Source of the DNA: Candidatus Saccharimonadota bacterium
GTDB taxonomy: Bacteria; Patescibacteriota; Saccharimonadia; Saccharimonadales; UBA4665
Assembly: GCA_027315225.1 (NCBI GenBank)
Contig: DAHUYJ010000003.1
Coordinates: 1-64,000, forward strand
Direction: 5' to 3'
DNA: 64,000 nt
In this document: piece by piece, positions 26,607 to 64,000 of the stretch
How the letters are laid out: the number at the start of each line of letters is the position of its first letter
Position numbering within the stretch: the first letter of the stretch is position 1
Program-made: the position numbers and the translations under genes
The notes under the pieces: generated by a model
What the model was told of the DNA's origin: nothing
Seen by the model: only the letters and a program-made list of their open reading frames with translations
Databases searched by the model: none

Positions 26607-27173
26607 ATGGCTACACAGCATGGACGGTTTAGTACGAAGGGCTATCTTCTTGGCTTATTGGTAATTGTGCTGATAGGGGGCGGCGTTATCTTATATGTAC
26701 AACACCATAATAAGAAAAACCCGAACCTTGCAGCCAGTAAAAACAACCATGTTACCGTTAAGGCTACTCCTTCCACGCCAACTCAACACCAACAATCCAC
26801 CGATAACAGCACCGGCCAAGGTGGTATTGTCGATCAGAAAGGACGGGTGGGCGGTAGCTTGCCCCCACCATCACAGTGGGTCTCGTCTACTTCAGGAAAT
26901 ATCATCCTACAACAGCCTTCCGCCAATACGATCGTGCGGTCTGGTGATACGTTAAGCGGTACGGCCAAGGTAAGCACTGTACACTTCATCCTCAAAGACA
27001 GCTCAGTAGGCTTAATTGCTCAGGGTAGCTTAAGCGTAGTAAATGGTAAATTCTCCGGAACATTAGAGTTTACTCCCCATTCAAAAAAAGGAAGTCTCGA
27101 GGTATACTATCCTAACCCTCAAAACGGAGCAGAAGAGGACATAATCGATGTCAATGTTAGCTACAACCCATAG
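26607..27173 (+). CDS. membrane-anchored protein with Gmad2-like Ig domain
   Basis: A 188-residue protein with an N-terminal TM anchor (about 12-31), a Thr/Gln/Ser-rich linker (40-85) and a C-terminal beta domain (about 98-188). The domain's SANTIVRSGDTLSGTAK, GKFSGTLEF and EDIIDVNVSY segments resemble the Gmad2 immunoglobulin-like domain of extracytoplasmic proteins. It may act in adhesion or as a partner of the lectin protein. Its last 26 nt overlap the start of the lectin gene in another frame, so the two are an operon. Confidence 0.65.
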   Translation: MATQHGRFSTKGYLLGLLVIVLIGGGVILYVQHHNKKNPNLAASKNNHVTVKATPSTPTQHQQSTDNSTGQGGIVDQKGRVGGSLPPPSQWVSSTSGNIILQQPSANTIVRSGDTLSGTAKVSTVHFILKDSSVGLIAQGSLSVVNGKFSGTLEFTPHSKKGSLEVYYPNPQNGAEEDIIDVNVSYNP

Positions 27174-29097
27174 AATTAAAAGGAACAGGCCGCATAATAT
27201 ATTGCCTGTTGCGGTACTTTTGCTGTGCACCGCGATTGTCGCAAGCGCATTCATTCTTCCCGCGGAGCAGGCTCACGCTTTTACTCCTAATTACAATTCT
27301 AGCAATCTCATAGATAACCCGACATTACTTAATGATGGCACTATGAGCGCGGGCGCCATTCAATCTCTTCTATCGAACGTAGGGAGCGGCCTGGCAGGGT
27401 TTTCAGATGTTGAGGCTTGCAGCAGCACTATAGCCCCCTATTATCACCACTGCGGTCAAACTATATCGGCAGCCCAGATTATTTATGATTCGTCACAGGC
27501 CTACAGCATTAATCCCCGGGCTATTCTAGCTACTCTAGAGAAGGAGCAGTCACTTGTAACCGACCCCTCCCCTTCGCCCTCTCAATTAAACTGTGCTATG
27601 GGATATAACTCCTGTAGCGGGTTTGTTGGCTTTTTCACGCAAGTAGATAACGGAACCTGGCAGCTACGATTAAGCTATGAGTTGGCAAACGGTAATAGTT
27701 ACTGGGGGTATTCACCCTCGCAATACGCTTGCGCTAACGGCCACGATACAAATCCCAACAATAATTTATACAGCACTGGTTTATACCCGGGACGAACTGT
27801 TACTTTTTATGATCCCGGCGGTACCGCCGAAACAATTACTATAGCTAATGCAGCCACGGCTTCTTTGTATTGCTACACGCCATATGTTGGACCCATAAGT
27901 GTAACAGGATACTCTGGTAGCTATAATTTCGTTTACTACTACGAGTTATGGTTTGGCTCGACTCAAGCTTCTGTAGCCTATGCCTGGAATTATGAATCCC
28001 AGTCAGCGTACTCCAATTCGGCCATGACAAAACCGTTAACCGGTATACCTACTGTAGCTCCAGGGGGCTTAATATACGCACAAGTCAAGGCAAGAAACGT
28101 CGGTTATCAAACGTGGAGCCAGCCATACTTACACCTAGGAACTTCTAATCCCGATGACAGGACTAGCGTATTTTATGACAGCAGCTGGCTTAACGCCCAA
28201 AGACCCGCCAGCTTGGTAGAGTCCTCTGTTGCGCCCGGGGATGATGGAACGTTCAATTTTGCTCTGCATGCTCCTACGCAAACAGGAACATACAGGGAGT
28301 ACTTCAGCCTCGTTGATGACGGAACAACTTGGCTGAATGACCCGGGCCTTTACTTTCAGATTAATGTTGTTAGCTCTGTAACAGCCCCTAATTCCAGCGA
28401 TACTACTATGGTGCCTGGCCAAACAATTACTCCTGGGCAATATATAATATCCCCCGACACGCAAAGCGTGCTGGTACTACAAAAGAACGGTAATTTAGTA
28501 CAATACAATGACTTTGAGACCTACTGGACCTCCAGCACCTCAGGCACTTCTGCGAGTCGCTTAGTGATGCAAACAGATGGCAACTTAGTGCTCTATGACC
28601 AAAGTGGCAAAGCGTTGTGGGACAGTCAAACCCAAAATAATCCTGGAGCGTGGCTCAACCTTCAGCCGGATGGCAACTTGGTCATATATAGCGCCTCTAA
28701 TCAACCCCTCTGGTCAACATCAGCTATAAATAATCCCAACAACTTGTCTTACGTCAACACTACGATGCAAGACTCTTATATGTTCGCGGGCCAATCACTA
28801 TACACCGCTAATAGGACATACCGTTTAGTGCTGCAAACAGACGGCAACTTAGTGCTCTATGACCAAAGCGGCAAAGCGTTGTGGGCAACCGGTACCAATG
28901 GAATACCGCCAGGCTTCTTGGCCCTTCAGCCGGATGGCAACCTAGTGCTATATAGCCAAGACGGTAGACCAATATGGTATACGAAGACCGCAGGCTACTC
29001 GGGAGATAGCCTGGTGATTCAGCAAGACGGCAACTTGGTCTTGTACAGTCAATATCAAACCCCTCTTTGGGATACACAAACAGGCGGCATGCCGTAA
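27148..29097 (+). CDS. secreted mannose-lectin (B-lectin) adhesin with muramidase-like and Ig-like domains
   Basis: A 649-residue secreted protein. The signal peptide (1-44) ends with an AHA cleavage site. An N-terminal domain (about 50-270) contains AQIIYDSSQAYSINPRAILATLEKEQSLV and resembles wall-associated lysozyme-like domains common in Actinobacteria, with Glu in LEKEQ as candidate acid. An Ig-like domain (about 290-410) resembles the NBR1-type. The C-terminal 225 residues form two bulb-type (GNA/B-lectin) modules with five QxDGNLV(L/I)Y mannose-binding motifs. GAGG lies 9 nt before the ATG. It would bind mannose-type glycans on the cell itself or a host. Confidence 0.8.
   Translation: MSMLATTHRIKRNRPHNILPVAVLLLCTAIVASAFILPAEQAHAFTPNYNSSNLIDNPTLLNDGTMSAGAIQSLLSNVGSGLAGFSDVEACSSTIAPYYHHCGQTISAAQIIYDSSQAYSINPRAILATLEKEQSLVTDPSPSPSQLNCAMGYNSCSGFVGFFTQVDNGTWQLRLSYELANGNSYWGYSPSQYACANGHDTNPNNNLYSTGLYPGRTVTFYDPGGTAETITIANAATASLYCYTPYVGPISVTGYSGSYNFVYYYELWFGSTQASVAYAWNYESQSAYSNSAMTKPLTGIPTVAPGGLIYAQVKARNVGYQTWSQPYLHLGTSNPDDRTSVFYDSSWLNAQRPASLVESSVAPGDDGTFNFALHAPTQTGTYREYFSLVDDGTTWLNDPGLYFQINVVSSVTAPNSSDTTMVPGQTITPGQYIISPDTQSVLVLQKNGNLVQYNDFETYWTSSTSGTSASRLVMQTDGNLVLYDQSGKALWDSQTQNNPGAWLNLQPDGNLVIYSASNQPLWSTSAINNPNNLSYVNTTMQDSYMFAGQSLYTANRTYRLVLQTDGNLVLYDQSGKALWATGTNGIPPGFLALQPDGNLVLYSQDGRPIWYTKTAGYSGDSLVIQQDGNLVLYSQYQTPLWDTQTGGMP
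28561..28884 (+). repeat. internal duplicated lectin segment
   Basis: Positions 28561-28620 and 28825-28884 are 60-nt direct repeats with 57 identical bases. Each encodes an LVxQTDGNLVLYDQSGKALW motif. The 264-nt spacing equals one lectin module, so the second module arose by a fairly recent duplication or conversion. Confidence 0.85.
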
Positions 29098-49314: not shown

Positions 49315-51420
49315 CTAAGGACTGCCTCCTGGGCCAGTCCAGTGCCAGGCACCTTGGCTCCAATAGCTCGACGGCGCATTTGTTGGCCCTGTCTTGACGC
49401 CAGGGCTATGAGAGCCGAACGTATACACAGTGTTACCTTTTACGTACATGACGATTTCGACGTGTCCATCACCAGGGCTACCATTTCCCGCGTTGGTGGT
49501 TACTATGTCCCCTGCCTGAGCTTGGCTGATTGGGATACTTTTCCAATAGTTGGATCCAGAACCCACCATAAAACCGGTGCTGTTTGAAACAGACCAAGTA
49601 AAGCTTTGGTTAAAAGCCGCGTCTACCGCAACACTTACCAAGCCGCTGCAGTCGGTACCGCATGGTCCCGGATTGCTCACAGTGCTTGAGCCCGCGGCGC
49701 TCGACAGGGCGCTCAATGGGCAGTTCTGCCGAAAAGTCGAATAACTTTCGTGCCCACCGCCCCACAAGTAATATATGCCGGCGTATTTTTCAGCTTCGCA
49801 CAGGATGGCCGCATTCCCGGTCACGCTGCCGGCGGACACCCCGCCGCTGGTGCAGTTTACAGAGCCGCAACCGCCCGGACTGCTCGGGTTGCTGACTGCA
49901 GGGCCACTCCCCCCAGTAGTCAGTTTTATGAGCTGTTGGGTCCACGATTTGATGTTGGCGATATACTGTGCGGTGTTATTTTGGCCTGGGGGAGAATATG
50001 CCTCCATTAAGGCCACGAGATTGTTGCCGCTTATGCTGCTGCCGTACTGGTCTCTTAAGTAAGTAGCCATGTCGCCCCCTCCGGGTATATTTTTGTTCTC
50101 CGGAGCTGTGTAGTCAACGCTGGCCTCTACGGACGACCACTTATACCATGACTTGGCTCCCTGAAAACTTGGTTGACCCGGACCTGCCGTACGGCCGAAC
50201 GAGTTGTGCGCATGGATCACGTTATAGTCGCCGGGGTCAGACAGGCTGGACTCTTCTTTGGCGATCGAAACTATAAGGAACGGGTTGACGTTCGAATTTT
50301 TAGCGCTGGCAACAATGGTGGAGCCCAGGCCGCTCAGCTTACTCTGCGGATTTTCCTGCTTTATCCATGTATTAATAGCACTTGCCATGGCGGCCGGATC
50401 AAGATTCGGGAATGCTGCTCCGTCTGGGGCGCCAGATCCGGCGGAAACCGATCCGGTTGAGCAGCTGCAGGTGCTGCCGCTGACGCCGGGAGCGGAGCCT
50501 GGCCCCGGTATGGGCACGATGTTTTCTATTCCTTTCGCCACACCATCCGCATATTTACTGAGCAGGCCGGGGCTGACTGAAGCACCTGGGGCGTCCTGGG
50601 TCTGCTCGGCATACACCCAGGGAACCTTGGCAAAGTACTGGGTGGTCAGCATGTTGCCCTTCATGACCGTACCGGTAATAGGATCGGTCCTGCTGATGGG
50701 GCCGTAGATGTTGGCGTACGTGCCGGCGTGCCATGGCTGCCCTTCTACGTTTTGCAGCGCACTTGCCATGGCCGAGGCATCCTTTTGGTCGGTGTTTGCC
50801 AAGCCACTGTTAGTGTAAACATCATGAGTTCCGGTAGTAGTGACTACGTAGTTACCGACACCGGGATAGAAGACGTTGTTGTCATGCGACGGGTTCCCGG
50901 GCGTGGTATGCAGCGATACTCCGAGGGCGGCGTTGGCGTTATTAGCAACCTCGGCACGCTTTTTCAGGTTGGTTGAGCTATCATCAAGCGAACTTTTGGT
51001 AAGCAGTACAGTGTAGCCGTCATTTTGCAGCGTGTTCTTTACATCTTGAGCCACTTGCCATACCTGTGCCATCTCAGGATCATTCTCGTAGTCAAATACC
51101 GGCAGCTTCGTGGCCGGGTCCACGGCCTCGTTGGCCTTGGGGGCATGACCGGGGTCCAGGACTATGGTAGTCGCTCCGGAAGCGTTGCCTGAGGGGGCAG
51201 AGGCCGCGCCGGACACCCCGCATGCAGAACCTGTTACCCAGTTTGGGTATTCATTTAGGGCCTGGAGTTCGCCGGTGGGGAGAGGCTGTACGTAAGAAGC
51301 GGCAGCTACAGGAGCCACAGGCAAAACGACCATCCACAGATTTGCAAGAGCTGCAAGACAGAATAAAACTCTCTTGGGAGCTATCGACAGGGCGTTTCTC
51401 ACAGGTGTTTTGATTTTCAT
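49315..51420 (-). CDS. three-domain murein hydrolase (amidase, muramidase/glucosaminidase-like, NlpC/P60)
   Basis: A 701-residue secreted enzyme with a signal peptide (about 1-42). Domain 1 (about 85-285) is an Amidase_3-type N-acetylmuramoyl-L-alanine amidase: VLDPGHAP for zinc, SLHTT and WVYAEQTQ. Domain 2 (about 340-510) resembles lysozyme/glucosaminidase: NPFLIVSIAKEESSL with the likely catalytic Glu near 388. Domain 3 (about 570-695) is NlpC/P60 with CGTDCSGLV (Cys near 590) and GDGHVEIVM (His near 655). Three different wall bonds would be cut. In the VirB4/PrgI locus it resembles the wall-opening subunit of Gram-positive conjugation systems. Confidence 0.85.
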   Translation of the reverse strand: MKIKTPVRNALSIAPKRVLFCLAALANLWMVVLPVAPVAAASYVQPLPTGELQALNEYPNWVTGSACGVSGAASAPSGNASGATTIVLDPGHAPKANEAVDPATKLPVFDYENDPEMAQVWQVAQDVKNTLQNDGYTVLLTKSSLDDSSTNLKKRAEVANNANAALGVSLHTTPGNPSHDNNVFYPGVGNYVVTTTGTHDVYTNSGLANTDQKDASAMASALQNVEGQPWHAGTYANIYGPISRTDPITGTVMKGNMLTTQYFAKVPWVYAEQTQDAPGASVSPGLLSKYADGVAKGIENIVPIPGPGSAPGVSGSTCSCSTGSVSAGSGAPDGAAFPNLDPAAMASAINTWIKQENPQSKLSGLGSTIVASAKNSNVNPFLIVSIAKEESSLSDPGDYNVIHAHNSFGRTAGPGQPSFQGAKSWYKWSSVEASVDYTAPENKNIPGGGDMATYLRDQYGSSISGNNLVALMEAYSPPGQNNTAQYIANIKSWTQQLIKLTTGGSGPAVSNPSSPGGCGSVNCTSGGVSAGSVTGNAAILCEAEKYAGIYYLWGGGHESYSTFRQNCPLSALSSAAGSSTVSNPGPCGTDCSGLVSVAVDAAFNQSFTWSVSNSTGFMVGSGSNYWKSIPISQAQAGDIVTTNAGNGSPGDGHVEIVMYVKGNTVYTFGSHSPGVKTGPTNAPSSYWSQGAWHWTGPGGSP

Positions 51421-51725: not shown

Positions 51726-54700
51726 TTATCCACCGGAGCCGCTGCATGTGCCACCTACGCCTGTGTCTGTGCAAACTGTTCCGCCTGACAATATTAGGGG
51801 TGGCCGCGGTGCCTGGCTAAAGTCAAAGTCGCTGGTCAGGTCGCCGGTCAGGGGGCTATTCTCGCGAACATCCGGCCGCGGGTCTGGGCGGCCATCAGTC
51901 GAAGGATCAAGCCGCTGCCCGTTTAGAAAGTCGTCCTCGATGAATTTTAGATAGGCGTCGTGGCTGGTCTGCTGGTTGTCTATATAGCCTTTCTTCGCAT
52001 AGGGGCTGATAACCAGGCCAGGCACCCTGATACCCAGACCGTTGTTATCCAGTTGCGGGGGTGGTACATGGTCGTAAAAGCCGCCCCAGTCGTCCCACGA
52101 CAGGAATATAGCAGTACTATCCCAGTCAGGACTTTGCATAATAGTATTTATAAGTCCTGTTACGTAGCTCTGGCCGGTACTTACCAGGGCGGGCGGATGT
52201 TCGCTGACTATATTGTTCGGGTCAATCCAGCTGACAGCCGGAAGGTTTCCGCTGGCGGCCTGCTGGTAGAAGTTACCCAAAGGTTGAATGTTGCCGAGTT
52301 GGTTGTCCTGGTGGACATCAGTAAATGACGGTAGAGGATTCCAGATCCCGGGCGTGTAATAATTTTGCTTGGGCGGATTGGGGCAAGATGTGGCTCCGGG
52401 GTTCGGACAGTCCGGATCCCCTCCGTCAAAGACGTAGTAACCCCACGGCACATTGTCTTTGTGCAGCAGATAGGTCAAGTCCGTCCACGCATAAACTGGA
52501 TCGGGCGGCTGGGTGGTTTGCCCTTTACACATTATGTCTATGGGGCATTGGGGACTGAGTCCGTTGCCTATGGCGCCTACACAGGACATCGGGTTAGAAG
52601 CAGGCAGGCCGTTCAAGCCGCATCTGGCAGACCATCCCGAAACCATGTAAAGATGCTCAGGAAAGCTCCAAGAGCTGCTGGATTCGAACATGTGGTCCTG
52701 AAGCACGAAGTTTTTGGCGTACTGCCAGTAGTTATAAACGGTCCCGGTCCCTTGCGTGTTGCCGGTATGGTATCCCATCACGTCATTCACGGCGTTTGGC
52801 TGGCTACAACCTGGTGAGTCCTGATTAACGATACAGGCACAGGCGTCCTTATCCTGATTTGCTTTTATGCTACAGTACGCTTCCAGGTTTTTGTACTTAT
52901 TCTTATTATTGTCTATAAGCTTTTGCTCGTGGGAGTAAAAGCCGTCCATTTTTCCGCCGTCCACGTCATTTGCATAACTACCGTAATCGTGGGAAGAGCC
53001 GTAGTTTTTGTCAGTATTATTTATGTACGGGCACACCTTTTTGCCGCTAGGATTGGACAGGTCGGCAGGAATGCACACCCCCGGCTTAAGCGAGCCGCTG
53101 GAAGTAAAGAGACCGTCAGCCCCCGGATAGGCGCCGAAGTACGTATCAAACGAACGGTTCTCCTGCATGATGACCACCACGTGCTGGATCTTGTGTATCC
53201 CGCCTGTCGGCTTGCTCGCCACGGGCGTAGAAGGACTACAACTACTGCTGGTATCTGCTAGGTCGTCGGTGGTGAGCAAGCTGCAATTGAGAGCGCCCCC
53301 GGCACTACCGACCGTGGCCTTGATGAGCAAGCACGGATTTGTCGACGTATTCTCGGGCATTCCCGTGCTCGAATCAGTAGTGGCGGCCGCCTCACCGTTC
53401 CAACCTTGTCCATTTCCCGAATGCTGATAGTCGTAGTTGTTTTGATAGGCTTGGGCGGCATTATCGGAGCAGTGATTGTCCCAGTAGGTCCCCGGGTTAG
53501 GCGGTATAGACGGTGTAGGCCCGGACGGGTAGCCATACTGCGTTACCCCGAATGGGTCAGGCTGTGCCGGGGTGGCAGCGCTCGCTCTCGCCGAAAAAAT
53601 GGAGCCGAAACTCTGCGCTAGGGTACCGAATGGATCGCCTACCAGGCTTGCAAAAGAGCCTGCGGAACTGCTCACGCTGCTCGGCATATCCAGGGCAAGC
53701 TTGGATACTAGCGAATACTGGCTATTGGTATCGAACATTCGCGCAAAAAACGATTCATTGGTGAATTGCTGTTGGGCCTGGTCCTGTTGCTGGTTCATAA
53801 TAGCGGCCGCCTGGGTTGCCGACAGCTTCTGCCCGCCCAAACCTGTATGAGCATAGTCGTTGCCTGATACATCCGCACCGGCCGCCATCATATCGAATGT
53901 GCGGCCACCGCTCATGTTGGTGCCGAAAGGATCGGGAATAACACTACTAATCACTGCGCTATATACAGGTTTAAGGGCTTGGCTGATCAGGCTACTTAGG
54001 CTGCTCACTCCTGGGATATGGCTGATAAGAAAGCCAAGCACGTCGTTTACTATGCCAAAGACGCCGCCCAGAATGCCATGTATGACTCCGGCAGCGCTAG
54101 TGATAATGCTTATGCCGGGCAGGTTTAGGAACGAAGTTATGGTATTAGCAATTCCGTTGCCCTGACCAAGCACTTCCTCCGGACACACCAGTTTGCCGGC
54201 AGGAATCGGCTTATTTCCTGAGCAAAGATAGCTGCTGGAAGCATTAGTGCTCTTTTTGGTGGCTGCGTATGCCTTAGCAGGCAACACATCGTTAAGCAGC
54301 GAAGTTGTGGTCGACGGGGACCCTCCGCCGTTCATTAAGCTGTTATACAGCGGCGTAGCCTCGGCTCCGGCCGTACCGCCGACTTCGGGATCATTAGAAT
54401 TGCCGTTGTTGCCGGGCCCAAGCGAATTTGTGAACGACCCAACTTCCGTAGCGTCGACATGTCCGGTGTGGACCTCATCGGCATAGGAACGGTACTCCAT
54501 ATACAGGCTTACCGCCGCCGCCGCGTTGGTTATGTAGGATAGTTTTTTGATCTTGGGCCCTATGTTTTTCAAGGTTGAAATCAGACTAGATATTCGGTTA
54601 ACCCAGCCTATGACAGGGGCTGCACTGGAAATCTGGTCGCTTAACTCGCTCAGGCCCAGTTTTTCCAGTGCGGCGTCAAGAAGGTACTTTGAATAGCCAT

Positions 54701-56033
54701 CTTCCGAGATAGTCTCATACTCTTTGATCATTTTTTTGACAGCGCTTTTATCTGTTATTCCGTAGCGTGTTGCAAGCTCTTCGAGGTTGGTACGCACCTT
54801 GGTGTCCGTCTCGGGGTTTTCCGGTGCACCGCTTAACTCGCCCGTCGTCCCGTCCTGAGGAGTCGTCGGTTGGGTTTGTTCTGGGTCGCAGCCGGGATCA
54901 AATAGGCATTGCAAAACAATCCCTAGCGTGTCGGTTCTCGGGACTATAACCCTTTTGGCTAAAAAGATTTTGGCGGCATTTTTCTTTTGGTTAGCAAAAT
55001 CATGCAGTGCGTCCTTGGTGCCACAGAAGAGAATGCAGCGCTTGATGCCATATTTTTCTTCGAGCAGCCGTCCGACCTTATAGCGCATCATTACCTGCTT
55101 CCATTTGGTTTCATTTTGCACAGCGTCATTTATAGCGGTACGCATAGCGGATCGGTCAGCTCGCTGGAAATCGCTGTTGAGCTTTTGGCCATCGGAACCA
55201 ATATTATCGCCTACGCCGCTTGTACCTGGCGCCTTGAGGTACCATGACTTAGTAGTCCTGTCGTACTTAAACTCTATGCCGTATTTGGTCGCCAATTTAT
55301 TCTCAAGCCTGTTAGCAGACCAGGTCTTGTATAGCCTCTCTACGGGGTTATTGCCCGAAATAGTGACCTTGCAGTTTTTGCTGACCGTTGTTCCGCAACG
55401 CTTATAGAATGGCAGGGCCTTTTTGATGTAACTTTCCAACATGTTGTCTGTTTCTTTCTGTACAGCGCTGTCAGCGCTGGAAAAGAAGTGACTCTCCAGA
55501 TTTTGGACCATATTTTCGACCTTTAGAGGTATAAGCAAGAAGAATATGAGAACACCTGTACCGGTTGCTCCTGCTAGGGCGCCGCCGCCGATAATTGCCC
55601 GGCTTTTGGTAATTCTGAACCTGGCTTTTTTGTTGCCGGTGGAGCTTGAGTTGCCATATGTATATCCTTGGCCAACGCGGTCATCTGGCTCATCCTCCGG
55701 CGACTCCTCGGCGCTTCTGAGAGAGCTTGGTATCCCGCCGGTGTTGGAGCTTGCGCCACCGGCTCTGCTTCCCACCTGCCGCCTTGGGCCGCCTGGACGG
55801 GTTCTGCCTGTAGCCGAAGACGAGGTATTGCTACTGGCTCCGCCGGATTGCGAGCGAGTACTGCTGCGTGCACCTCCGGCCTGGGAATCGGTTCTGTCGC
55901 TTGCATGCCAGAAACCGCCTCCGGCCGTGTTGTTGGCGATACCTTCGCGGGCTTGCAGGCCTGATTTTGTTTCCGCACGGGGATCTTTCTCACTATCACG
56001 TGCAGGATCTTGCTGTTTAGCTGGTTCTGCCAT
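51726..56033 (-). CDS. giant membrane protein fused to a phosphoesterase (phospholipase C/acid phosphatase family)
   Basis: A 1435-residue protein. Residues 1-145 are low-complexity and charged. A TM helix lies at about 148-173. A long exported region follows (175-600), then a hydrophobic patch (about 628-700) and Gln/Ser-rich linkers. Residues about 945-1420 are a PF04185-type phosphoesterase: HVVVIMQENRSFDTYFG, HDYGSYANDVDGGKMDGF, SSWSFPEHLYMVSGWSA and FLSWDDWGGFYDHVPPP are metal-site and substrate motifs of phospholipase C/AcpA enzymes. It is encoded between VirB4 and the murein hydrolase. It is probably a surface-presented phospholipase or phosphatase. Confidence 0.8.
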   Translation of the reverse strand: MAEPAKQQDPARDSEKDPRAETKSGLQAREGIANNTAGGGFWHASDRTDSQAGGARSSTRSQSGGASSNTSSSATGRTRPGGPRRQVGSRAGGASSNTGGIPSSLRSAEESPEDEPDDRVGQGYTYGNSSSTGNKKARFRITKSRAIIGGGALAGATGTGVLIFFLLIPLKVENMVQNLESHFFSSADSAVQKETDNMLESYIKKALPFYKRCGTTVSKNCKVTISGNNPVERLYKTWSANRLENKLATKYGIEFKYDRTTKSWYLKAPGTSGVGDNIGSDGQKLNSDFQRADRSAMRTAINDAVQNETKWKQVMMRYKVGRLLEEKYGIKRCILFCGTKDALHDFANQKKNAAKIFLAKRVIVPRTDTLGIVLQCLFDPGCDPEQTQPTTPQDGTTGELSGAPENPETDTKVRTNLEELATRYGITDKSAVKKMIKEYETISEDGYSKYLLDAALEKLGLSELSDQISSAAPVIGWVNRISSLISTLKNIGPKIKKLSYITNAAAAVSLYMEYRSYADEVHTGHVDATEVGSFTNSLGPGNNGNSNDPEVGGTAGAEATPLYNSLMNGGGSPSTTTSLLNDVLPAKAYAATKKSTNASSSYLCSGNKPIPAGKLVCPEEVLGQGNGIANTITSFLNLPGISIITSAAGVIHGILGGVFGIVNDVLGFLISHIPGVSSLSSLISQALKPVYSAVISSVIPDPFGTNMSGGRTFDMMAAGADVSGNDYAHTGLGGQKLSATQAAAIMNQQQDQAQQQFTNESFFARMFDTNSQYSLVSKLALDMPSSVSSSAGSFASLVGDPFGTLAQSFGSIFSARASAATPAQPDPFGVTQYGYPSGPTPSIPPNPGTYWDNHCSDNAAQAYQNNYDYQHSGNGQGWNGEAAATTDSSTGMPENTSTNPCLLIKATVGSAGGALNCSLLTTDDLADTSSSCSPSTPVASKPTGGIHKIQHVVVIMQENRSFDTYFGAYPGADGLFTSSGSLKPGVCIPADLSNPSGKKVCPYINNTDKNYGSSHDYGSYANDVDGGKMDGFYSHEQKLIDNNKNKYKNLEAYCSIKANQDKDACACIVNQDSPGCSQPNAVNDVMGYHTGNTQGTGTVYNYWQYAKNFVLQDHMFESSSSWSFPEHLYMVSGWSARCGLNGLPASNPMSCVGAIGNGLSPQCPIDIMCKGQTTQPPDPVYAWTDLTYLLHKDNVPWGYYVFDGGDPDCPNPGATSCPNPPKQNYYTPGIWNPLPSFTDVHQDNQLGNIQPLGNFYQQAASGNLPAVSWIDPNNIVSEHPPALVSTGQSYVTGLINTIMQSPDWDSTAIFLSWDDWGGFYDHVPPPQLDNNGLGIRVPGLVISPYAKKGYIDNQQTSHDAYLKFIEDDFLNGQRLDPSTDGRPDPRPDVRENSPLTGDLTSDFDFSQAPRPPLILSGGTVCTDTGVGGTCSGSGG

Positions 56034-56128: not shown

Positions 56129-58102
56129 CTATACGCTGCCGGCACTTCCCGGTGTCAGCCGGTTGTTGAGGTCTATGGTACCCTGGGGCTGGTTAAACTC
56201 TCCGGCGCTCGGCCCTATCCCGAAGCCGCCGCCTTCCTCGTTTGCTCTTGCCTCTTGAATGGCCTGCACCTGCTCGGGATTGGTGGTGATGAGTTCGGTT
56301 TCTGTAGGGCTGGCTACCACTTGGATATGCACATGGTTTTGCCCGGCAAAGAACAGCCCCTGCCCGACCGGGAACTGGCTCAACCGCTTGCGTTCCTCGC
56401 TTGTCAGCTTGAATACATCTGTCAGCACGTCCACCGCCGTGGGCGACTGCTTGAGTAGGAACTGCATGGAGGCGTTGGCGACAATGGCCCGGCCCATGCG
56501 CGAACCCATGAAGTCCTCGACGTCCTGGGTGATAGTCGTGACGCCCAGGTTGTATTTGCGGGCGCGCTTAGCAAGCGAGAACAAAAAGCCGGCGGAGTCC
56601 TCGTACTTCATTAATTGCCAGGCCTCATCAACTATCAGGATACGGCGCCTCTCGTCGGTCTTGGTCTTGTTCCAAATGTAGTTGAGTACGATGTACATGG
56701 CGACTGGGCGGAGTTCGTCTTCCAGGTCGCGCAGATTGAACACTACCAGTGGGTTGTTAATGTCCACATTGCTTTGCTGGGAGAAGATACCGGCGAACGT
56801 ACCGGTGGTGTATTTGCGCAGACGCTGCGCCAGCTGCGGCCCGGTTCCGCCCATGTGCAGGAGAGTGTCGTACAGGTCATTAATAGTCGGCGGCGTGCCG
56901 GTATGGGTTAGCGGATCGTTGGTTATGCCGGCCCTGGCGTAGGTTTCGATCAGGGCGGCATCCAGGTCGGCCTCCTCGCTTGGCGCCAGGGCCGGCGTCA
57001 TTCGGCCGGCATCGGCCCCAGCCATTTCGATCTGGGCTCCGCCCATCATCAGTCGCAGCAGGCCATGCAATGTGATCAGGTTGCTGCGCAACGCACTGTC
57101 GGCCTCCTCGCTGTCTACGACTTTTGGCAGGTCAAATGGGTTGATTCGGGTCGAAGAGTTCAAACTGAGCTGGACGTACGCCCCATCCACAGCCTCACAC
57201 ATCCGCTGGTACTCGTTCTCCGGGTCGATGATGAAGATTTCCGTGCCGAACATCATGCTGCGCAGGGCCTCCAGCTTGACGGTGAAGCTCTTTCCAGCAC
57301 CGGATTTGGCAAACACTACGGAGTTGCCGTTTTCCAAGCTGAACCGGTCGAAGATAACCAGTCCGGAATTGTGCATGTTGATGCCGTAGAGGATGCCGTT
57401 GTCCTGGCTGAGGTCTGCGCTGGTGAACGGAAAGCTGGTAGAGAGCGCGCCGGTGCTCATATTGCGCCGGATCTGTAGCTGGTCAATGAGTTGCGGCACC
57501 GTACTGTTGAGTCCTTGTTCTTGTTGGGAGGACGCCGGCTTGCTATAAACCAGCTGTTGCCCAAGCATTGACTCCACCTTGTGCGAAATAAAGTCCAGCT
57601 CCTCCATGCCGCCGCCATAGATAGTAAAGTAAAGCCCGAACCGGAAGAACCGTTCCTCGCCGACCTGCAGCTTGTCGCGCATCTCTTCGGCGTCCATGAT
57701 AGCCGCTTCTTTGCCGGGGTCGCGGACACGGCCTTTTTCGGCCTCAATCTGGATGCCGGCCTCCAGCTGTGTAACTTTCTTACGCAGGTTTTCCAGCACC
57801 ACCTGGCTTTCTACCGGATACACATACATGCTGATGTCGATCACCTCGTCCAGGTTTATCAAGCCGCTTAGCCAACCGGTGTACAGCTGCCTGGGGTAGC
57901 CATACACATAGTAGGTTCTAGCGTAACGCGTACCGATCTGGAAATGCGTGCTGCTGAACTCAATCGAGCTAGGCGCAATGAAGTCACGCAGTGCGGTAAT
58001 GCCCTTCTGAAAGGCGCTTTGGACTTCCTGCTGCTCACGTTCCCGTTGGGCCTGCGCGACGGCCATCGGATCCGGCGGCGGTTGCTTTTTACGCCCCAGC
58101 AT
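56129..58102 (-). CDS. virB4: VirB4/TraC-type secretion ATPase
   Basis: A 657-residue ATPase of the type IV secretion family. Walker A is AKSGAGKSF (near 266) and Walker B is RRILIVDEAWQLM (near 488). SLNSSTRINPFDL and ITQDVEDFMGSRMGR are typical VirB4 motifs. The N-terminal region is short because part of it seems to be encoded by the gene upstream. GGAGG lies 9 nt before the ATG, 13 nt after the previous stop. Energises assembly and transport. Confidence 0.92.
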   Translation of the reverse strand: MLGRKKQPPPDPMAVAQAQREREQQEVQSAFQKGITALRDFIAPSSIEFSSTHFQIGTRYARTYYVYGYPRQLYTGWLSGLINLDEVIDISMYVYPVESQVVLENLRKKVTQLEAGIQIEAEKGRVRDPGKEAAIMDAEEMRDKLQVGEERFFRFGLYFTIYGGGMEELDFISHKVESMLGQQLVYSKPASSQQEQGLNSTVPQLIDQLQIRRNMSTGALSTSFPFTSADLSQDNGILYGINMHNSGLVIFDRFSLENGNSVVFAKSGAGKSFTVKLEALRSMMFGTEIFIIDPENEYQRMCEAVDGAYVQLSLNSSTRINPFDLPKVVDSEEADSALRSNLITLHGLLRLMMGGAQIEMAGADAGRMTPALAPSEEADLDAALIETYARAGITNDPLTHTGTPPTINDLYDTLLHMGGTGPQLAQRLRKYTTGTFAGIFSQQSNVDINNPLVVFNLRDLEDELRPVAMYIVLNYIWNKTKTDERRRILIVDEAWQLMKYEDSAGFLFSLAKRARKYNLGVTTITQDVEDFMGSRMGRAIVANASMQFLLKQSPTAVDVLTDVFKLTSEERKRLSQFPVGQGLFFAGQNHVHIQVVASPTETELITTNPEQVQAIQEARANEEGGGFGIGPSAGEFNQPQGTIDLNNRLTPGSAGSV

Positions 58103-58115
58103 CAGACATTCCTCC

Positions 58116-59069
58116 TCATTGCGGCAACTCCTGCTGGAGATGGGCCTGCGGCGCGCTGCCTCGGCCTTTGGTTACGACATCGGCCGTAAGATCGTTGAAA
58201 TTCTTGAGCTGTTGGCGGGTGGCAGTGTCCGGATTGTAAGTGTCATAGTAGAGCTCAATCAGCTCCTGGGTGTCCAGCGGCAGGCCCTGAACACTGCACT
58301 GCATAAGGCCGGACAGCACGGCCTGTACCCGGTTACGCAGCTCGGTTTTGGCGCTTTCCAGGTCGGCCTCGTTGATCACCACATGCTGTTCCTGCTTGCT
58401 GAATAACCCCCCGAGTCCGCTCAAAAAGTTCTTGCTTTGGGTCAGCGCTTTTTGCGCGTCTACGGTCGGGAAGAACGGGATCACCACGTAGAATTTTTTA
58501 TCCATAATGTTAGTCTGCTGGCTGAGGTTGGCTATATAGGATATATAGTCCTCCATGAGCAACGCCAATAGCATGTTGTCGTGCTCGGTACGTATTTTGT
58601 CCAGCTTCTCGATATAAGGCCCCAGGTCGACTTTTTGGGAACGGACAAAAATCTGGATCTGGAAGTACAGGGAATTTAAAAATCCCTGGTAGCTGTACTC
58701 GACAGCTTCCTGTTCCTGGGTGCTCATTAGGTCGAAGTTGATGCTCTTAGCCATTACCACCGACCGGAAAGACCCGTCGTTCATGATCACGATGCCGTCG
58801 CGAATCTCGGCGATTTGTAGAGAATTCTGGGTGCTGTTAGGATGGGTCTCGGGTTTAGAAGCCGGCTTTGGCGTGCCGGTAGGCATATTATATGGTGCCT
58901 GGGTTCCGGTACCGCCTTGTGCGTTAACAGGCGCCACTGACTGGCCTGGTATCAAGGGAGACGGTGCCGGCGTTGCGCTGGCTACCGACTGCAAGGCTCC
59001 GGTCTGGGGCTGATTGGGTTGCCCGGAAGCGTTTGGTTGGTCTGGTGTCGTTTGTGTTGACGGATCCAT
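58116..59069 (-). CDS. TraC/VirB4 N-terminal-like protein
   Basis: A 317-residue protein. A Pro/Gln/Thr-rich N-terminus (1-80) precedes a domain (85-300: LQIAEIRDGIVIMNDGSFRSVV, and SYQGFLNSLYFQIQIFVRSQ). This domain resembles the N-terminal part of TraC/VirB4 proteins. The ATPase part is the next gene. So the VirB4 function is likely divided between two proteins. No Walker motif is seen. Confidence 0.72.
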   Translation of the reverse strand: MDPSTQTTPDQPNASGQPNQPQTGALQSVASATPAPSPLIPGQSVAPVNAQGGTGTQAPYNMPTGTPKPASKPETHPNSTQNSLQIAEIRDGIVIMNDGSFRSVVMAKSINFDLMSTQEQEAVEYSYQGFLNSLYFQIQIFVRSQKVDLGPYIEKLDKIRTEHDNMLLALLMEDYISYIANLSQQTNIMDKKFYVVIPFFPTVDAQKALTQSKNFLSGLGGLFSKQEQHVVINEADLESAKTELRNRVQAVLSGLMQCSVQGLPLDTQELIELYYDTYNPDTATRQQLKNFNDLTADVVTKGRGSAPQAHLQQELPQ

Positions 59070-59121: not shown

Positions 59122-60249
59122 TCAGTGCAACGAAACTACGACCTCGTCCGGCGAATGGCCTTCGTCCGCCTGTTTTTTGCTGGCCTGGCGAGCCAACGTT
59201 GCCACGTTGAGGTCGTTGTTTTTAGCCAATGACAGTATATCAGGGTCGCTAGGTGTTGTCACAACGGCAGGCTGATCTGCAGAGACCGTTTTTTGCTGGC
59301 TGGCGGGCTGCGGTTTAGGGGCAGACTGCACTGCCTGGGTCGTCTGGACCCCGAGTGGTTGCACTGTCCGGAGGTTGTTAAATGAGACATGCCGTGAGTT
59401 GCTGCGGGATGCCAACTCCGCGGCCAGGGCGGCCTCATTTTCTTTTTCCTTTTTGGCGGCAACGTCGTCGGATGCTCCGCCGGTATATGGCGGAACCGTG
59501 GCGGCCGCCGTAGCCATTGGCGCTCCGGGCGCCGCGGCCTGCCGCTGGCTCAAAAACCAGTTCGCGCTGCCCGCCTGCGAACTGGTTTTTTGGTCTTCCC
59601 GCACGTCGCTTAGGCGATCCATGAGCTCTTGGCGATGACTCTGGGTCGACTGGTTGATCATAGATGTGAACTGCCGGGCTATGGGACTGCTGGTTTCATC
59701 CATGACATCGTTGTAGGAGGCCGGGTCATCATTCGGCACTTCCTGCGGCAGGCCGCTTATGTCAATGAGGCGGTCAGAGCTTACGGCCGCGGTGGGCTGC
59801 ACATACATTCCAGCATCAATAGCATGTTTGATGGCCCAGCCGCGGCTGTCGAGCGTCTGGGCCAAAATCTTGAGTCGGCTATTAACCTCAGTTTGGCTCA
59901 GGCCATTTGTCAAGACGCGTTCTACTTTTTTGGGAACCGTGATTGTCACCAGCTCTTTGACGCCGCTCTGGTTCCAGATTCTCTTGCGCGGCTTGAACCA
60001 GAACCGCAGCTTGGCCAGTGCCCAGATTTCTGTCGGCTGGTCCCGGCCGAACGGCATCGCGAAAAAACCGAAGAACAGCGCCGGCGGCAGAAATAACACT
60101 AGGAAGAACTCAAGATGTTTGACGACCAACACGAAGCAAATATAAAAGAGGAACGCCGCGATCAGCGCGAAGATGAACTGCCTGAGCGTCAGCGGACCTA
60201 TAATGTGGTCCTCGGCCTCAATATCCTGAATCAGTTTGTATGTTGCCAT
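59122..60249 (-). CDS. PrgI-family T4SS membrane protein with long C-terminal extension
   Basis: A 375-residue protein. The first 110 residues fit the PrgI family: EDHIIGPLTLRQFIF, two TM segments (about 20-42 and 45-62), then FGRDQPTEIWALAKLRFWFKPR. PrgI equals the VirB3 component of Gram-positive T4SS. The remaining 265 residues are polar and disordered with coiled-coil-like stretches. The ATG at 60249 is preferred over a GTG two codons earlier. It lies beside an inverted repeat that overlaps its promoter. Confidence 0.8.
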   Translation of the reverse strand: MATYKLIQDIEAEDHIIGPLTLRQFIFALIAAFLFYICFVLVVKHLEFFLVLFLPPALFFGFFAMPFGRDQPTEIWALAKLRFWFKPRKRIWNQSGVKELVTITVPKKVERVLTNGLSQTEVNSRLKILAQTLDSRGWAIKHAIDAGMYVQPTAAVSSDRLIDISGLPQEVPNDDPASYNDVMDETSSPIARQFTSMINQSTQSHRQELMDRLSDVREDQKTSSQAGSANWFLSQRQAAAPGAPMATAAATVPPYTGGASDDVAAKKEKENEAALAAELASRSNSRHVSFNNLRTVQPLGVQTTQAVQSAPKPQPASQQKTVSADQPAVVTTPSDPDILSLAKNNDLNVATLARQASKKQADEGHSPDEVVVSLH

Positions 60250-60250
60250 A

Positions 60251-60281
60251 ACCACTAACAGTATAGCAAACTGTTAGTGGT
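60251..60281. promoter_or_regulatory. inverted repeat at the prgI promoter
   Basis: ACCACTAACAG (60251-60261) and CTGTTAGTGGT (60271-60281) form a perfect 11-bp inverted repeat with a 9-nt spacer. A minus-strand TATACT (-10-like, 60260-60265) lies in and beside the spacer. No T-tract follows, so an operator or an mRNA hairpin is more likely than a terminator. Confidence 0.55.
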
Positions 60282-62529: not shown

Positions 62530-64000
62530 CTATGGTCCGCCACCTCCGCCGCCACCACCACCGCCGCCACCACCTCCGCCGCCAGGACCGCCCGATCCAC
62601 CGGCTCCTGGTATGCCCATAGATTCGGGCGACCTAGCCTCCATCATGTACATTCGACGCTCTTCTTGGGTAATTCCCATTTCGTGCATGGTTTGTTCAAG
62701 CTTAACCTTTGCACCAGGGTCAGATGGGGCATAGATACCGGCTTGCACGGCCAGGGTTTTGCGCAGTTCTCTCTGCTGAGGCGACAGCTTCGAGATATCA
62801 ATAACCGGCATTGCGTCACCGTTGTCATATTTATCCGTAGCACTGAGAATTTGCTTGCCTGTCGCTTGGTCGACAGCAACAGCGCCTTTTGCTTGCAAAT
62901 CCTGCGTGGTGCCGCCGTGAAACTTGTAAGCCTCCCTGGTGTCGTCATAGTATTCTCCTTTGCCCATGCCTACAGAGCCAGCCTTGGCTGTCATTAGTGC
63001 ATCTTCTGCTTCCTTGCTCTGATACGCTTCTATTGTCTCAGTCTCTTGGGAGCCGTCTGCACGGTAAACCGGCTGCCCGTCCTTTGTCTTAGGAACCGTT
63101 AGCTTATGGTTCCCCCACACCGAGTAAGCCTGTCCGTCGCTGTCGATTTTCACGCCTTTACCGCGTCGCAAGTCTTGGCGCTGCTGGGTAGCAGAACTCT
63201 CGAGATGGGACATCTCCATGCTGGCGAGTGCCTCGCCGTAAGGATCGCCGTTTGCCTCCTCGTGCAAGTGGTTTCGCATATGAGCAAGATCCTCTGCGCT
63301 TAATTTGCCTTCCTTCGCAGCAGTTAGTCCCGCTACGCTTTCTAGCGTAGCACGCTGCGTGTCCATGTGTAGCCCGAAACTACTGAGTAAGCCGGCCTTA
63401 CTTCCTAGCTCCTGGCTGGCATACTGTGCTTGAGACCCGTCCAAGCTTGAGGCGCCAAGGTCGCTGGCGTATGCGTGCAGACCTTCGAAGTCAGCATTTC
63501 TGGGAGCTTGCCATCGAACGGCTCGTTTACCGCTTTCGCTGACTCTATTGCCGTCCTCGTCCAAGCCGTATTTTTCGTCCATAGTACTTAGGCCTTCAGC
63601 CGTAAGGCCACTTGCTAACTTTTCGCGCATACCCAAGGCCGCCCAAGCTGACGAGTAATGCAGGTTGGCCTGCTGAGCGGCTTTGTCGGTGTGTTCCACG
63701 GCCCGCATGGCTTTTTGGCCACCCATTTCGCCGGCCATACGACCGAACAGTTTCTTGCTGCCGATCTTACTGGTCAGCTTGCCAACGCCGCTGCCGGATC
63801 CTAGGTCGTAGGGAAGTTGCTCGTCCGCGTCAAGACTGTAGAAACCGACCTTGTTAAGGAAGCCTGGGAGTCCGGTCTTCTTTCTATAAAGCCCTGCGCC
63901 GCGGGCCCGCTCCATACGCGACTTTCTCTGGTTTGCGCGAACACCCTGTAGTGCCTTGAAGCCGCCCTGAGCACGGCCTTGTACAAGATTACCCATTCCG
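62530..64000 (-). CDS. probable VirB6/TrbL-like protein, soluble C-terminal region (5' partial)
   Basis: An open frame runs from the right edge to a stop at 62530. An ATG lies at 63996, but the frame is open before it, so the gene probably continues beyond the window. About 490 residues are visible, all hydrophilic, Ala/Gly-rich and helical, with basic stretches. The C-terminus is a near-pure Gly run followed by Pro. In PrgI/VirB4 loci the polytopic VirB6/TrbL protein often has a long soluble tail of this kind. That assignment rests on position and composition only. Confidence 0.5.
   Translation of the reverse strand, partial: GMGNLVQGRAQGGFKALQGVRANQRKSRMERARGAGLYRKKTGLPGFLNKVGFYSLDADEQLPYDLGSGSGVGKLTSKIGSKKLFGRMAGEMGGQKAMRAVEHTDKAAQQANLHYSSAWAALGMREKLASGLTAEGLSTMDEKYGLDEDGNRVSESGKRAVRWQAPRNADFEGLHAYASDLGASSLDGSQAQYASQELGSKAGLLSSFGLHMDTQRATLESVAGLTAAKEGKLSAEDLAHMRNHLHEEANGDPYGEALASMEMSHLESSATQQRQDLRRGKGVKIDSDGQAYSVWGNHKLTVPKTKDGQPVYRADGSQETETIEAYQSKEAEDALMTAKAGSVGMGKGEYYDDTREAYKFHGGTTQDLQAKGAVAVDQATGKQILSATDKYDNGDAMPVIDISKLSPQQRELRKTLAVQAGIYAPSDPGAKVKLEQTMHEMGITQEERRMYMMEARSPESMGIPGAGGSGGPGGGGGGGGGGGGGGGGP

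Follow-up and report, generated by a model that had tools for sequence, protein, structure and literature searches.

A VirB4-adjacent membrane scaffold of Saccharimonadia with an exchangeable C-terminal enzyme slot, occupied in one genome by a phosphoesterase module

The window analysed here, a stretch of 64,000 nucleotides from a Candidatus Saccharimonadota bacterium, carries part of a T4SS locus, and the genes of this locus described below lie on the minus strand. The protein under study, P0001, is encoded by a single uninterrupted ORF of 1435 codons that spans exactly positions 51726-56033, as a preliminary description had reported without giving the strand, and the gene is genuine. Directly upstream lies the gene of the VirB4 ATPase (56129-58102), which matches NF045971 (CD1110-type VirB4, NCBIfam) with 357 bits, above the cut-off, and beyond it are encoded a TrsD-like (VirB4 N-terminal-like) protein (58116-59069; E=2e-6, below the curated cut-off) and a PrgI/VirB3-like protein (59122-60255; PF12666). 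A further, polytopic protein (62530-63996, its full ORF continuing past the window to 65010; 826 aa, approx. 7 TM segments) has no Pfam match, so that its VirB6-like label depends on topology and position. Downstream of P0001 is a murein hydrolase of 701 aa with Amidase_3 and NlpC/P60 domains (49315-51420), and several relatives likewise encode a separate murein hydrolase; the 305-bp gap between it and P0001 contains no ORF of at least 80 aa and hence no immunity-like gene of that size. These profile matches bear out the earlier placement of P0001 in a T4SS locus between virB4 and a multi-domain murein hydrolase.

P0001 appears to be a bitopic protein: a cytoplasmic N-terminal tail is followed by a single membrane-spanning helix and, outside, by a large helical domain that ends in an enzyme tip. 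The low-complexity tail (aa 1-145; 55599-56033) is rich in Ser, Gly, and Arg; its cytoplasmic location is suggested by the basic stretch that precedes the membrane helix and by the distribution of Cys (none in the first 145 residues vs. 12 and 14 outside). The only clear TM helix (aa 152-170; 55524-55580; Kyte-Doolittle 2.05) corresponds to helix H5-45 of the AF2 model of the scaffold and is probably oriented N-in/C-out. The conserved scaffold itself (aa 139-936; 53226-55619; profile A1/A4), with the C-terminal motif PCLLI.AtvGsaGG..d.sLLt, is predicted to be helical with good confidence (pLDDT 82, pTM 0.88), and a short linker (aa 937-945; 53199-53225) connects it to a PF04185 phosphoesterase module of the AcpA/PLC superfamily (aa 946-1420; 51774-53198), assigned from profile and structure matches. 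Thus, of the "disordered, TM-anchored N-terminal two thirds" described earlier, the single membrane anchor holds, whereas the disorder-like part shrinks to approx. 145 residues, and the remainder is a conserved folded domain.

The scaffold is widespread within the class, in which a profile search detected it in 133 of 393 genomes, including 47 of the 93 genomes of the GTDB family. In a sample of 333 genomes of the phylum, it was present in 15, every one inside the class, and none was found beyond it. Its position is constant in most genomes: in 90 of 100 fetched loci, the gene immediately follows virB4 and is read from the same strand, and several of the remaining 10 loci are cut by a nearby contig end. 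It is from this gene position that a physical assembly of the scaffold with the T4SS is presumed. The scaffold matched no family in Pfam, NCBIfam, or PHROGs and no model in the viral structure library BFVD; Foldseek returned no solved structure at E<=1e-3, and its profile gave only spurious matches to PDB sequences (PsbY and a designed helix). Two known T4SS components were considered as possible identities and rejected: VirB6, because P0001 has one clear TM helix rather than a polytopic topology and the separate polytopic protein mentioned above takes that place, and VirB8, with its NTF2-like extracytoplasmic domain, because the model is mostly helical and resembles no solved structure.

What follows the linker differs among relatives, and the linker marks the point at which their C-terminal domains are swapped. 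This slot may be filled by VanY, M15-like, M23, NlpC/P60-like, CHAP, amidase, SGNH, EEP, M14, or beta-lactamase-type modules, or it may be empty, as in about 25 of 100 loci. These assignments were made by reading the tail sequences, and they agree with the Pfam tallies wherever Pfam recognises a domain (VanY in 24 loci, M23 in 15, M15_4 in 5; further EEP, GDSL, M74, M14, Amidase_2, CHAP, and beta-lactamase2). The domains are recognised extracytoplasmic enzyme types, and most of the enzymes other than the one in the window are peptidoglycan hydrolases. On a scaffold tree of 88 rows, at least 45 module changes are required, which is close to the 53 expected after shuffling (minimum 47), and even the nearest relative, a sister genome (G074) whose scaffold is 52% identical, carries an M15-like module. 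This exchangeability is of greater importance than the single phosphoesterase fusion. The conserved scaffold and its slot form a larger feature, which the preliminary description had missed.

In the window, the slot contains a complete PF04185-type phosphoesterase, as already proposed, which belongs to the phospholipase C/acid phosphatase family. PF04185, the sole Pfam family matched in P0001, aligns with aa 949-1369 (E=1.2e-61, 209 bits vs. a cut-off of 23, profile positions 1-353 of 356), scores that exclude a chance match, and the motifs quoted earlier (ENRSF, HDYG, SSWSFPEH, and DDWGGFYDH) are all found in the translation. The catalytic positions of the AcpA/NPC4 superfamily follow the order E-N, H, S or T, H, and D-D or D-E (PMC9837106), and alignment places all seven residues in P0001, including those of the metal site and the nucleophile: E958 and N959 (53157-53162) and D1314 and D1315 (52089-52094) at the metal site, H1015 (52989-52991) and H1279 (52197-52199) at the positions of NPC4 H79 and H264, and S1123 (52665-52667) at that of the nucleophile. 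The roles of E958, N959, and the two histidines are taken from the same study; the histidine columns were matched by motif and conservation, and S1123 aligns with the AcpA serine and is invariant in 32 of 32 rows. The module also matches the folds of RePLC (8k3g), AcpA (2d1g), PLC-N/PLC-H (9gy2, 9gye), and NPC4 (8hav) in the PDB; its own predicted structure reaches a moderate pLDDT of 70.6. With 131.8 bits against TIGR03396 (phosphatidylcholine-specific PLC; curated equivalog cut-off 580) and 128.6 bits against TIGR03397 (acid phosphatase; curated cut-off 363), it scores far below both curated cut-offs, and as it also matches solved enzymes of either kind, the earlier label "phospholipase C-type" is one candidate assignment among others. 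It occupies a long branch of the module tree (1.0 vs. a median of 0.26), and of 130 positions that hardly vary in the family it deviates at 7, none of them catalytic; for both reasons its activity could have changed. Enzymatic activity and substrate are best treated as predictions from sequence.

The closest kin of the module (approx. 60% identical) come from soil Actinomycetota and Chloroflexota; they are enzymes that stand alone and appear to be secreted, as most of them have signal-peptide or lipobox-like N-termini. In the module tree, the window sequence lies among Actinomycetota, Chloroflexota, and others, and no single donor phylum is singled out. The close kin include a stand-alone TM-anchored protein of genome G193 that is 60% identical to the module, and the genome of the window itself encodes a second, stand-alone PF04185 protein. 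The slot probably gained its phosphoesterase by capturing the domain of a free-standing enzyme that was itself probably secreted. No second case of PF04185 in the slot was found among about 390 genomes of the class; the long frames of other PF04185-bearing genomes (G125, G373, G027, and G193) encode surface or stand-alone proteins and lack the scaffold. This uniqueness might be taken to indicate a misassembly or annotation artefact in which a foreign phosphoesterase gene was joined to a T4SS gene, as the preliminary description had cautioned. Soil Actinomycetota are generally GC-rich. Nonetheless, although many kin come from these bacteria, GC content and codon use show no step at the join (GC 0.530 and GC3 0.57 in the scaffold part, 0.535 and 0.62 in the enzyme part), a single frame runs through both halves, and the join coincides exactly with the site of domain exchange in relatives. 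An artefact is extremely unlikely, and since most relatives bear another enzyme at the same place, we consider it excluded despite the unique fusion.

Among the known systems closest to P0001 are the VirB1-type hydrolases of Gram-positive T4SS, such as PrgK of pCF10, TraG of pIP501, and Orf14 of Tn916, which are T4SS-encoded, membrane-anchored, and equipped with extracellular enzyme domains that vary between systems (PMC12857230). P0001 is likewise anchored and has a predicted extracellular domain; however, it lacks SLT, muramidase, CHAP, and LytM domains (many relatives do have a peptidoglycan-degrading domain), its scaffold of approx. 800 aa shows no detectable sequence or fold kinship to solved proteins, and its one slot changes content inside a single class and is here filled by an enzyme other than a wall hydrolase. 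AcpA, RePLC, PLC-N/PLC-H, and NPC4 share the fold and catalytic positions of the module, but P0001 differs in the fusion to a T4SS scaffold and in scoring below both subfamily cut-offs. MPF-FATA-derived T4SS of Patescibacteria likewise have VirB4, TrsD-like, and PrgI genes near dnaA, with hydrolase homologues immediately 3' of virB4, whereas neither the scaffold family nor an exchangeable C-terminus is mentioned in the relevant passages of the two surveys (PMC12102498, PMC10633639). The literature searched contains no T4SS component with this enzyme domain, in agreement with the earlier remark that none was known. Only by analogy can P0001 be compared with PilB of Streptococcus sanguinis, a modular (bimodular) type IV pilin that is also a machine component with a grafted functional module (PMC8179133); the protein and its machine are unrelated to P0001. 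T4SS genes are reported to be essential for epibiotic growth of Southlakia epibionticum, the one species tested (PMC10633639), as are the peptidase and lysozyme homologues immediately 3' of its virB4 (PMC12102498). The role of the saccharibacterial T4SS has been described as completely unknown (PMC11665869).

Scaffold conservation and position, slot exchange, the intact active site, family membership, and the extracytoplasmic kin of the module, all established computationally, form the basis of the reading that we favour and hold to be reasonably probable: a T4SS-associated bitopic scaffold presents an exchangeable outer enzyme, here a captured phosphoesterase that probably acts on the host envelope. 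The scaffold, encoded directly after the VirB4 motor, would display the enzyme at its outer C-terminus, docked on the T4SS of the epibiont outside the cytoplasm. The organism probably lives on other bacteria, and the tip would work outside the cell at the host contact, where it may cleave phosphodiesters or phosphomonoesters (in the host envelope, either the head groups of phospholipids or wall polymers that contain phosphate) by metal-assisted catalysis with a serine nucleophile. Such cleavage would breach the envelope beside the T4SS channel or set free lipid and phosphate that the epibiont perhaps cannot produce itself. A phospholipase C/acid phosphatase tip hints at a secretion system acting on a neighbour's envelope, and we infer that the host, rather than the epibiont's own envelope, is the target.

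The majority of wall hydrolases in the slot is equally consistent with work on the epibiont's own cell wall, in which case the tip would clear wall or surface polymer for T4SS assembly and the phosphoesterase would cut the cell's own phosphate-containing wall polymer or lipid carrier. Anchored extracellular hydrolases are indeed the VirB1 solution of Gram-positive T4SS (PMC12857230), but a murein hydrolase is already encoded by a gene of its own at this locus and at those of several relatives, the slot is empty in about a quarter of the loci, and near-random swapping of enzymes should not be needed for such a function, all of which makes this rather unlikely. Slightly less likely still is that the module is an extracellular nutritional phosphatase, tethered to a T4SS protein for placement at the host surface. 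When the module and its kin are combined in one profile, the acid phosphatase AcpA scores best (198 bits vs. 157 for PLCs), the close kin in soil bacteria are stand-alone enzymes that appear to be secreted, and the second PF04185 protein of the genome would also fit; phosphate scavenging, however, leaves unexplained why wall hydrolases are the usual content of the slot.

A conserved N-terminus joined to a variable C-terminal enzyme is the layout of polymorphic toxins, and it is also that of the present family, so that the whole protein or a clipped tip might be delivered to the host as a T4SS substrate rather than being a fixed component. This is improbable given the membrane helix, the invariant place after virB4 with a single copy per locus, the extracytoplasmic type of the slot enzymes, and the next gene, which encodes the murein hydrolase in place of an adjacent immunity-like protein.

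The favoured reading, of a T4SS-bound scaffold with an exchangeable outer enzyme, can be taken further. Possibly, though this is tentative, the class-specific and apparently new-fold scaffold is a universal docking platform of the T4SS, on which the tip is swapped like a tool head to suit the host envelope (here a phospholipase/phosphatase), and the T4SS would then be an envelope-breaching or lipid-harvesting device rather than an exporter of DNA or protein. Because the scaffold matches no Pfam, NCBIfam, or PHROGs family and has no solved-structure counterpart, it can serve as a marker for further tip enzymes of uncultured lineages. Its constant place beside VirB4, together with an outer enzyme that differs among lineages (usually a wall hydrolase, in this genome a phosphoesterase), suggests that the envelope is breached where the epibiont touches its host.

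The open reading frame at 51726-56033 was confirmed on the minus strand, with a single start and a single stop, and its placement between virB4 and a murein hydrolase gene also stands, the hydrolase (Amidase_3 plus NlpC/P60) being the next gene downstream. In transcription order, on the same strand, it is preceded by genes for a polytopic VirB6-like protein (62530-65010, extending past the end of the window), an uncharacterised 553-aa protein, a DUF5663 protein, PrgI, a TrsD-like protein and, directly before it, VirB4. dnaA and dnaN, identified from their translations, lie near the T4SS locus at 44.5-47.3 kb, and one account places many patescibacterial T4SS loci likewise near these genes (PMC12102498). 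No VirD4/TrwB coupling protein was matched in the whole genome with PF10412, in agreement with the Southlakia T4SS, which is described in one report as having no recognisable coupling protein (PMC10633639). Elsewhere in this genome, outside the window, contig C5 starts with six tandem T4SS_pilin genes (PF18895, VirB2-like; 119-2426), and a Gly/Asn-repeat reading frame is interrupted by the end of the window's own contig at 65630; the pilin array may continue the locus. The window's polysaccharide gene region also encodes an exported 649-aa protein (27148-29097), by eye a hydrolase-like N-terminal part followed by lectin-like QTDGNLVLYD repeats, which is a possible surface adhesin.

The C-terminal phosphoesterase proposed in the preliminary description is borne out by PF04185 (aa 949-1369, 209 bits), the sole Pfam match in the 1435-aa protein. 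In an alignment of the module (aa 946-1420) with 31 relatives, E958, N959, H1015, S1123, H1279, D1314 and D1315 occupy the positions required in plant NPC4 (E23, N24, H79, T158, H264, D299 and E300; PMC9837106), and N959, S1123 and D1314 are unchanged in every row. Three motifs (EN, Ser and DD) are matched directly by pairwise alignment with AcpA; both His positions were assigned from motif and column conservation. The predicted module fold (pLDDT 70.6, pTM 0.81) matches RePLC, AcpA, PLC-N/PLC-H and NPC4. With the catalytic positions filled and these fold matches, the module is very probably an active member of this phosphoesterase superfamily, phospholipase and phosphatase being indistinguishable by sequence; it scores far under the cut-offs of the NCBIfam PC-PLC (131.8 against 580 bits) and acid-phosphatase (128.6 against 363 bits) models.

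The part preceding the module is a conserved scaffold (aa 139-936). With aa 139-904 as the query, 47 of 93 genomes of the GTDB family yielded homologues, and the scaffold profile matches 133 of 393 class genomes at E<=1e-5; in a phylum sample (n=333), it matches only 15, all of the same class. The class is taken to be Saccharimonadia from the preliminary description, the gene content and this distribution across the phylum. The AlphaFold2 model from 88 sequences (pLDDT 82, pTM 0.88) is predominantly helical and has no significant match in the PDB or in a viral structure library. There is one clear membrane helix (aa 152-170), preceded by a basic stretch, and cysteines are absent N-terminal to it and frequent C-terminal to it, which together fit an N-in/C-out topology. 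Of 100 scaffold-bearing loci, 90 have virB4 as the immediately preceding gene in the same orientation; several of the other ten are interrupted by a contig end close to the virB4 place.

Past the final scaffold motif (...PCLLI.AtvGsaGG...sLLt), the relatives' sequences are wholly unlike. Sequence reading, with partly manual labels, placed an enzyme-type module in this slot in 74 of the 100 loci, none in 25 and an unclear one in 1. A Pfam search of the 91 C-terminal tails of at least 60 aa identified VanY (24), M23 (15), M15_4 (5), EEP, GDSL and M74 (2 each) and single cases of beta-lactamase2, M14, Amidase_2 and CHAP. Module type tracks the scaffold only weakly, given at least 45 changes on the scaffold tree (88 rows); shuffling the labels gave 53 changes on average and never fewer than 47. 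The scaffold nearest to the window's (52% identity, SH-aLRT 98; genome G074) carries an M15-like domain, and the next-nearest have a degenerate M23, M15-like or empty slot. The phosphoesterase fusion is a single instance, and the exchangeable slot is the generalising feature.

Individual slots are varied. M23-like tails in L100, L102, L115, L117, L139, L187 and L194 have DQGxD or similar as the first metal motif and no visible HxH; these LytM-like tips appear catalytically dead and may serve in binding. L158 (5267-7486) and L198 (817-2538) combine endonuclease/exonuclease/phosphatase-fold domains, two copies in L158, with a following M23 peptidase. Unusual enzymes at L167 (2856-4361), L173 (3386-4096), L122 (3340-4218) and L153 (5671-7185) include GDSL/SGNH hydrolase, accompanied in L167 by an NlpC-like part, M14 carboxypeptidase and a beta-lactamase-type domain with M23.

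The survey of relatives for the same fusion returned no match elsewhere among the 393 class genomes: PF04185 occurs in 28 and is joined to the scaffold in the window's genome alone. The nearest kin of the module, found by GTDB contig scan and inspection of reading frames, are stand-alone proteins approximately 60% identical to it from Actinomycetota, Chloroflexota, Eremiobacterota and others; by eye, the N-terminus of most resembles a signal peptide or a lipobox. To these is added a TM-anchored protein from G193, a different genome of the window organism's order. The scaffold was absent from every kin locus checked for it. No donor is discernible in the module tree, where the window's copy forms a long branch, and of 130 near-invariant positions this copy deviates at 7, all outside the catalytic set. 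GC content and codon use are alike in both halves of the protein, which implies that the module was not captured very recently or that its sequence has since been ameliorated. The same genome encodes a second, stand-alone PF04185 protein (C15, 8517-9182; 314 aa, exported-looking) adjoining a transporter gene, and proteins of this type occur in many family relatives.

All recognised slot enzymes belong to types that work, or could plausibly work, outside the cytoplasm, and kin of the module are apparently exported; the economical reading is that the C-terminal enzyme would form an extracytoplasmic tip. In Gram-positive T4SSs, VirB1/PrgK are membrane-anchored extracellular enzymes beside VirB4 (PMC12857230). 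The scaffold, however, has no detectable relation to solved proteins, and the protein would therefore be VirB1-like in its working at most. The separate downstream hydrolase suggests that wall clearance is partly done by another protein of the locus, and the near-random exchange of enzyme types suggests that the slot adapts to a target that varies, the host envelope being the most plausible one. As Saccharibacteria are described as generally lacking fatty-acid and nucleotide synthesis (PMC10633639), release of diacylglycerol, lipid or phosphate would benefit the epibiont.
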